Below, one piece after another: positions 43,043-53,227 of a stretch of DNA of 53,227 bases. The stretch covers positions 1 through 53,227 of the forward strand of contig JAFUAT010000001.1 in assembly GCA_017460625.1 (NCBI GenBank). The letters are read 5' to 3'. The translations under genes and the position numbers were made by a program. Below the pieces are notes generated by a model, which searched no databases, was not told the origin of the DNA, and saw only the letters and a program-made list of their open reading frames with translations. The DNA is from Candidatus Saccharimonadota bacterium (lineage in GTDB: Bacteria > Patescibacteriota > Saccharimonadia > Saccharimonadales > Saccharimonadaceae). The first letter of the stretch is position 1, and the number at the start of each line of letters is the position of its first letter.

Positions 43043-43097
43043 ATTGCATTTATGCTTTTCCTGTCCTATAATAAAGACATTATGTTGGGTCATACAC
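43043..43097 (+). repeat. 55-bp exact copy of the surface-gene promoter and start
   Basis: Identical over 55 bases to 52714-52768, covering -35 (TTGCAT), 17-base spacer, -10 (TATAAT), the ATG and five codons (MLGHT). Confidence 0.95.
43044..43072 (+). promoter_or_regulatory. promoter of the surface-gene remnant
   Basis: TTGCAT (43044-43049), 17-base spacer, TATAAT (43067-43072), then 9 bases to ATG 43082. Same as the copy at 52715. Confidence 0.6.
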
Positions 43098-43258
43098 CGT
43101 TATTCCTAGCACTTCTCTATTTTTCATGTCCTGTTGTATTAGGTCTTAGAACCGTAGAAAGTATCTCTCATGACTCTAATATTAACAAAGATAAACATAA
43201 CATCCATGTATTGACAATGTATAAAAAATGTAATACAATGTATCTAAGGAGTAAATGA
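43082..43258 (+). pseudogene. truncated surface-protein gene remnant
   Basis: A 58-residue frame. The start MLGHTPLFLALLYFSCPVV and LGLRTVESIS correspond to the signal region of the right-end gene (LLFLTLLYFSCPVILGLRTVEGIS), after an internal deletion of about 110 bases relative to it. The rest (SNINKDKHNIHVLTMYKKCN) has no match and reads through the antitoxin promoter up to its start. It looks like a 5' fossil or a donor cassette; expression of a short secreted peptide is also possible since its promoter is intact. Confidence 0.65.
43211..43239 (+). promoter_or_regulatory. promoter/operator of the DinJ-like gene
   Basis: TTGACA (43211-43216), 17-base spacer, TACAAT (43234-43239). Two direct copies of ACAATGTAT (one in the spacer, one across the -10) could be repressor sites for autoregulation. 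Confidence 0.55.
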
Positions 43259-52713: not shown

Positions 52714-52768
52714 ATTGCATTTATGCTTTTCCTGTCCTATAATAAAGACATTATGTTGGGTCATACAC
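52714..52768 (+). repeat. 55-bp exact copy, partner of 43043-43097
   Basis: Includes the promoter, start codon and first five codons of the right-end surface-protein gene. Confidence 0.95.
52715..52743 (+). promoter_or_regulatory. promoter of the right-end surface gene
   Basis: TTGCAT (52715-52720), 17-base spacer, TATAAT (52738-52743), 9 bases to the ATG at 52753. Likely leaderless or nearly so. Confidence 0.6.
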
Positions 52769-53227
52769 TTATAAACAATCACACAAATATTATTAAACGT
52801 TTTAATCGTTCTAACTCTTTTAGTACTAAGTCTAATATATATATATATATATAGGGCGGGCATAACCGCCTCAGTTTTGTTATTCCTTACACTACTTTAT
52901 TTTTCATGTCCTGTTATATTAGGCCTTAGAACCGTAGAAGGCATCTCCCAGGAATCAGAAACCACTCTCACCATAGACACCACCCATACTAGCGCAAAAT
53001 TAGACCTAACAGTAGCTAGTATGGATGGTACATTTAGCAGTACCACAAATGCAGATGACAAAGCCAAATTCACTGTAGCAACTAATAACTATACTGGCTA
53101 TACATTAACACTCAGTGGTACAGACGATACTAGACAACTGTCTAATACTTCTACTTCTACCGATGTATTAGATTCTATCAATGCGACAAACGGTATAGAT
53201 GCTACTACTTTTAATACATCTACATAT
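52753..53227 (+). CDS. surface protein N-terminus, frame interrupted at an (AT)9 tract (partial)
   Basis: From ATG 52753 the frame reads a basic segment MLGHT...KRFNRSNSFSTKSNIYIYI and stops at TAG 52852-52854 after 33 codons. The tract at 52835-52853 shifts it: the next frame, open from there to the window end, encodes RAGITASVLLFLTLLYFSCP, a hydrophobic signal segment, then a Thr/Ser-rich mature part (TIDTTHTSAKLDLTVASMDG) typical of Saccharibacteria surface proteins. One extra AT unit, or two fewer, joins them. The remnant at 43082 reads from the same ATG into the same signal region, which supports the start. Either a phase-OFF allele or a sequencing error; the gene runs off the window. 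Confidence 0.75.
52835..52853 (+). repeat. (AT)9 microsatellite in the surface-gene leader
   Basis: Nineteen bases of perfect alternating AT between the basic N-region and the hydrophobic core of the signal peptide. Slippage changes the frame; only one state in three is open. Confidence 0.9.

Follow-up and report, generated by a model that had tools for sequence, protein, structure and literature searches.

An AT repeat between start codon and signal core as a probable on/off switch of surface-protein genes in Saccharibacteria

How can a gene for a secreted surface protein work when its start codon lies in one reading frame and its hydrophobic signal core in another? The question is raised by the last few hundred nucleotides of a 53,227-nt stretch of DNA from a Candidatus Saccharimonadota bacterium. 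This stretch, here called the window, makes up contig C9 in its entirety; the source genome has 711,783 bases in 14 contigs. The features that bear on the question are the following:

52715–52743, + strand: probable promoter, read from the sequence as TTGCAT (52715–52720), a 17-nt spacer and TATAAT (52738–52743)
52753–52854, + strand: frame of the ATG, encoding the 33-residue basic N-region of a signal and terminated by TAG at the present, putatively OFF, tract length
52759–52767, + strand: GGTCATACA, an element at surface-gene starts in the genus, conserved at the nucleotide level in several registers relative to the ATG
52775–53227, + strand: core frame, with the hydrophobic signal core and the beginning of the secreted domain, truncated by the contig end
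52835–52853, + strand: (AT)9A, a simple-sequence repeat and the putative slippage switch, with an equivalent tract at the equivalent place in relatives
52854–52871, + strand: terminator-like stem-loop directly 3′ of the tract, GGGCGGGCATAACCGCCT followed by CAGTTTTGTT (1 found versus 0.0 ± 0.2 in shuffles)
43043–43176, + strand: paralogue remnant with identical promoter and MLGHT, then a direct jump to the core, without N-region and without tract

According to the original prediction, a basic N-region begins with the ATG at 52753 and ends at 52852 after (AT)9, the core lies in another frame, and one AT more or two fewer would restore a continuous protein. All of this was borne out. The frame of ATG 52753–52755 translates as MLGHTLINNHTNIIKRFNRSNSFSTKSNIYIYI and stops at TAG 52852–52854, the first two bases of which are the end of the AT repeat, and the frame beginning at 52754 has no stop from 52775 up to the end of the contig, translating as IYIYIYRAGITASVLLFLTLLYFSCPVILGLRTVEGISQES.... 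Tract length thus decides the frame, and one length in three is in frame. The (AT)9 run is well above chance length, with no match in 100 dinucleotide-preserving shuffles. The start at 52753 is backed by an intact paralogue, C7:498-1, which has ATG-TTA-GGT-CAC-ACA at the equivalent position and is in frame from there through to the core. The promoter layout is likewise repeated in the paralogues on C7, C4 and C10 and in the 43-kb remnant; an automatic −35/−10 scan did not pick up the window promoter, because TTGCAT fits the consensus at only 3 of 6 bases. Because the window ends where the contig ends, the gene is truncated by the assembly. Upstream of the core, the core frame has no standard start codon; the earliest one, a TTG at 52877, could act as a weak alternative start and counts against a switch.

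The best reading of this arrangement, to which we assign a probability of roughly 85%, is slipped-strand phase variation of surface proteins through a simple-sequence-repeat contingency locus. In the proposed mechanism, an AT run within the coding sequence of a secreted surface protein, after the start codon and ahead of the hydrophobic signal core, would gain or lose AT units by slipped-strand mispairing at replication. With one length in three, the secreted protein would be in frame with the start codon (ON), and the other lengths would stop translation early (OFF, the state in the present assembly). Many surface-protein genes of the genus would use this AT-run device, in some of them with the run setting promoter-box spacing instead. 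Copying slips thus probably turn surface proteins on and off in these episymbionts, as they do in some pathogens, and what makes on/off switching probable is that relatives carry the run at the equivalent place in varying lengths. We infer that such switching takes place within a living population and that it may serve to vary the surface exposed to the bacterial host, to phages or to animal immunity. Several lines of evidence support the phase-variation reading made in the original prediction.

First, the repeat is found again at the equivalent place in genes for secreted proteins: about 13 congeneric genomes have it there, as does one genome from a different family. With the intact copy as query, relatives were found in 113 of 174 congeneric genomes; a scan of named genomes, run with a 4-member profile (a 12-member profile was too diverse), returned Candidatus Saccharibacteria, mostly from ruminant gut, a group that the original prediction had named. 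Most nameable genomes are metagenome assemblies, in which the repeat length may be off by one unit. Across the same 174 genomes, AT runs of at least 15 nt, the survey threshold, occur in 32, so the device is patchy. Nearly all of these runs were retrieved, giving 58 unique runs, and at least 25 of the 58 occupy the 5′ end of the coding sequence of an ORF whose predicted product is a secreted or membrane protein, mostly between the ATG and the hydrophobic core (just after the core in three paralogues of genome G073). Two additional runs (L104 and L142) are at contig ends with 5′ sequence matching another such tract gene, and the remainder are intergenic or in promoters; none of the 58 is in the middle of an ORF of any other gene. 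TA-starting runs of exactly 14 nt are rare (2 genomes). Beyond the genus, long AT runs are rare as well, with two matches in an order-wide sample of 119 genomes; in one of the two, the genome from another family (G192, locus L217), the run is in a signal-like region, in the out-of-frame state. Once a 16-nt run in L070 is added to the 25, the 26 coding loci divide into 9 in-frame and 17 out-of-frame cases, a ratio of about 1:2 and near the one third in frame expected under free drift of tract length.

Second, tract length varies among near-identical paralogues and orthologues, and the out-of-frame coding sequence is conserved. In comparisons that are between paralogues or species, not strains, the G073 paralogues L143 and L146 have tracts of 17 and 19 nt within 60-nt flanks identical at 60/60 and 59/60 positions, L102 and L105 from two species have 17 and 19 nt within flanks identical at 59/60 and 58/60, and tract length also differs among L100, L132 and L133, which are of the promoter-spacer form. 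Both L143 and L146 are out of frame, with around 100 synonymous versus 38 non-synonymous changes over 398 shared codons (dN/dS 0.09); for L102 and L105, dN/dS is 0.08 over 58 codons of downstream coding sequence. Genome RGIG5872, from sheep jejunum, has an out-of-frame (AT)9A tract in L033 and an in-frame (AT)4 tract in the paralogue of that locus, L099. Pairs with both copies out of frame have dN/dS of 0.08–0.25, indicating conservation of the coding sequence in the OFF state; out-of-frame copies overall have dN/dS of 0.08–0.3 and open frames of 398–499 codons, most of them open to the end of the examined sequence. Judged from such alignments, a variable tract in conserved sequence is as reversible slippage would predict, unlike simple decay.

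Decay is nonetheless the alternative with most to be said for it: the window gene might be a decaying or silent copy, either a frameshifted pseudogene or a recombination donor for intact paralogues, with the AT run a chance break site. Broken pieces of the family do occur in its own genome (the remnant at 43043 and a fragment at C7:83316), exact blocks are common to different copies, and a third copy (C4:57170/57180 onward; L021:2170-2340) has TAA directly after its ATG and no clear start. Even so, the core frame of that third copy runs for 483 codons without a stop and reaches the end of the contig. We consider this explanation unlikely, given the long open frames and low dN/dS of out-of-frame copies and the finding that genes of unrelated species are broken at the equivalent AT run, with about one third in frame.

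The other copies in the genome also help to define what an ON gene would look like. The original prediction pointed to the remnant at 43082, and it was right that this reads from its ATG into the core in frame (MLGHTPLFLALLYFSCPVVLGLRTVES); the reading stops after around 58 codons, and the sequence is soon degenerate. As a model ON gene the remnant was rejected, since the entire N-region and the repeat are absent from it, and the intact paralogue C7:498-1 is the better comparator. The window core frame is 74% identical to this paralogue, with dN 0.41, dS 2.2 and dN/dS 0.18 (73 codons, shared block excluded). Among the paralogues in the same genome, C10 shares promoter, start and N-region with the window gene (123 bases exact) and terminates inside its AT tract. 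C7 has ACATATATAATATATAGG at the homologous position, an interrupted AT stretch with no long run, and the window tract is the sole AT run of at least 14 nt in the 711,783-base genome.

Could the real tract be in frame and the gene always on, its apparent break being an assembly or sequencing error? Short-read assemblies can miscount repeats, C10 and the contigs of two relatives terminate inside such tracts, and the window contig terminates just 3′ of its own. The ends of C7 and C9, however, are identical over 141 bases and are therefore assembly breaks in shared sequence, typical at repeats; a run of 18–19 nt is short next to that exact overlap. Moreover, out-of-frame loci make up 17 of the 26, a share that fits the two thirds predicted by free drift and does not fit rare errors, and promoter-spacer tracts also vary. 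We regard such an error as very improbable.

In the promoter-spacer form, the AT run would set the spacing between −35 and −10 boxes at some genes. Runs of 16, 20 and 24 nt at three loci of G006, and of 20 nt at one locus of G138, are flanked by CTTGAT and TACAAT, upstream of genes for secreted proteins, and runs of 18, 18 and 22 nt at three contig ends of G159 lie between TTGACC and TACAAT; the promoter-type loci are L100, L125, L132, L133 and L155–L157. Slippage of RNA polymerase or the ribosome at the AT run, yielding full-length protein as a constant fraction of the product with the DNA unaltered, can be almost wholly discounted: the run is in principle long enough for transcript slippage and has a stem-loop directly 3′, but established transcript slippage involves mainly single-base runs, near-identical copies differ in DNA tract length, for which this explanation has no need, and the promoter-spacer form falls outside what it can explain. 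As for the stem-loop at 52854–52871, a ribosome in the OFF frame halts just 5′ of it, so the transcript could be cut there; no stem like it was seen at the other tract loci inspected by eye.

Third, MutS (PF00488) and MutL (PF01119) are missing from all 30 related genomes searched, among them the genome of the window, in a search that detected both in 11 of 14 control genomes. This is in line with a published comparison in which MutS and MutL are among the families common to Absconditabacteria and Gracilibacteria but not Saccharibacteria (PMC8406219). With mismatch repair missing, dinucleotide slips would go uncorrected; on the phase-variation reading, its loss in this lineage would have an evolvability side.

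Which proteins stand behind the tracts? Those tested are mostly FISUMP-type (TIGR02145/PF09603) or have weak InlB-like repeats. A C-terminal Fib_succ_major domain scores above the curated cut-off in the tract-bearing relatives L122 and L148 (the latter on TIGR02145) and in a secreted protein on C2 of the window's own genome (L023). The window gene itself, 123 aa and truncated before its C-terminus, has no Pfam family match. At the left end of the window, positions 1–310 hold the C-terminal end of a further FISUMP-like surface gene, and C7:83114-83381 is a copy with an internal deletion, as if family members were losing their middles. In-frame AT runs also stand at the start of a family-2 glycosyltransferase (L154, G159:C1:67489) and of another predicted secreted protein (L108, G045:C8:17508), and the device may therefore extend beyond FISUMP proteins.

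The GGTCATACA element recurs in the remnant (43088–43096), elsewhere in the genome (C4:57191, C7:484 and C10:77) and at many loci among L031–L099. It is exact in 25 of 70 family members, versus a mean of 0.04 for permuted motifs, and is placed in one of two coding registers (GHT or VIQ) or around 12 nt upstream of the ATG. Because the registers differ or the site precedes the ATG, it appears to be a nucleic-acid element and not a peptide; MLGHT as a conserved peptide was rejected for the same reason. It might be a site for a small RNA or a protein. In the first coding stretch of some relatives (L036, L048, L061, L062 and L068), a long-range stem, CTACACCGTGG...CCACGGTGTAG, is a candidate RNA structure, with paired changes in L048 and L068; its carriers are Shine-Dalgarno-type members, with the stem in the N-region.

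A wider proposal, which we hold at about even odds as a whole, is that a genus-wide set of AT-repeat contingency loci, in coding and promoter form, diversifies, in episymbionts that lack mismatch repair, a surface repertoire of FISUMP type together with at least one glycosyltransferase, and that the GGTCATACA shared at many surface-gene starts could tie these genes into one post-transcriptional regulon.

Saccharibacteria live on the surface of other bacteria, and how they choose and retain these hosts is the wider question. If the phase-variation reading is true, a clonal population would simultaneously display many surface types, with possible consequences for its host range, for host resistance, for phages and for animal immunity; each locus would then be predicted to hold a mixture of tract lengths. 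A search of literature outside the subscription journals turned up no paper describing phase variation in Saccharibacteria. Slipped-strand switching is in itself a classical mechanism, and the lineage would be new for it.

Within the Candidate Phyla Radiation, the closest published case of local hypervariation affecting a predicted surface protein is a hypervariable repeat gene of Gracilibacteria BD1-5 (PMC6851277). Unlike the AT loci, its 9-base units keep frame and peptide, with no on/off switch. In the Type III methyltransferase gene of Mycoplasma mycoides subsp. capri, as here, a dinucleotide run, (AG)12, lies within the coding sequence, and translation stops early at an OFF length (PMC3498834); the target there is a DNA methyltransferase, and the tract is not tied to a secretion signal. 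The layout of the promoter-type loci resembles that of hifA/hifB in Haemophilus influenzae, where (TA)n between −35 and −10 sets expression of a surface structure (PMC2651432), except that here promoter and coding types stand side by side in one genus and the promoter function is predicted. The nearest match is oipA of Helicobacter pylori, a surface-protein gene in which the number of (CT)n repeats in the 5′ region sets the frame and thereby on or off (PMC10564699). The unit here is AT instead of CT, the proteins are FISUMP-type surface proteins instead of an outer-membrane protein, and the device would operate in a different phylum, in ultra-small episymbionts, and at several genes per genome in some species.
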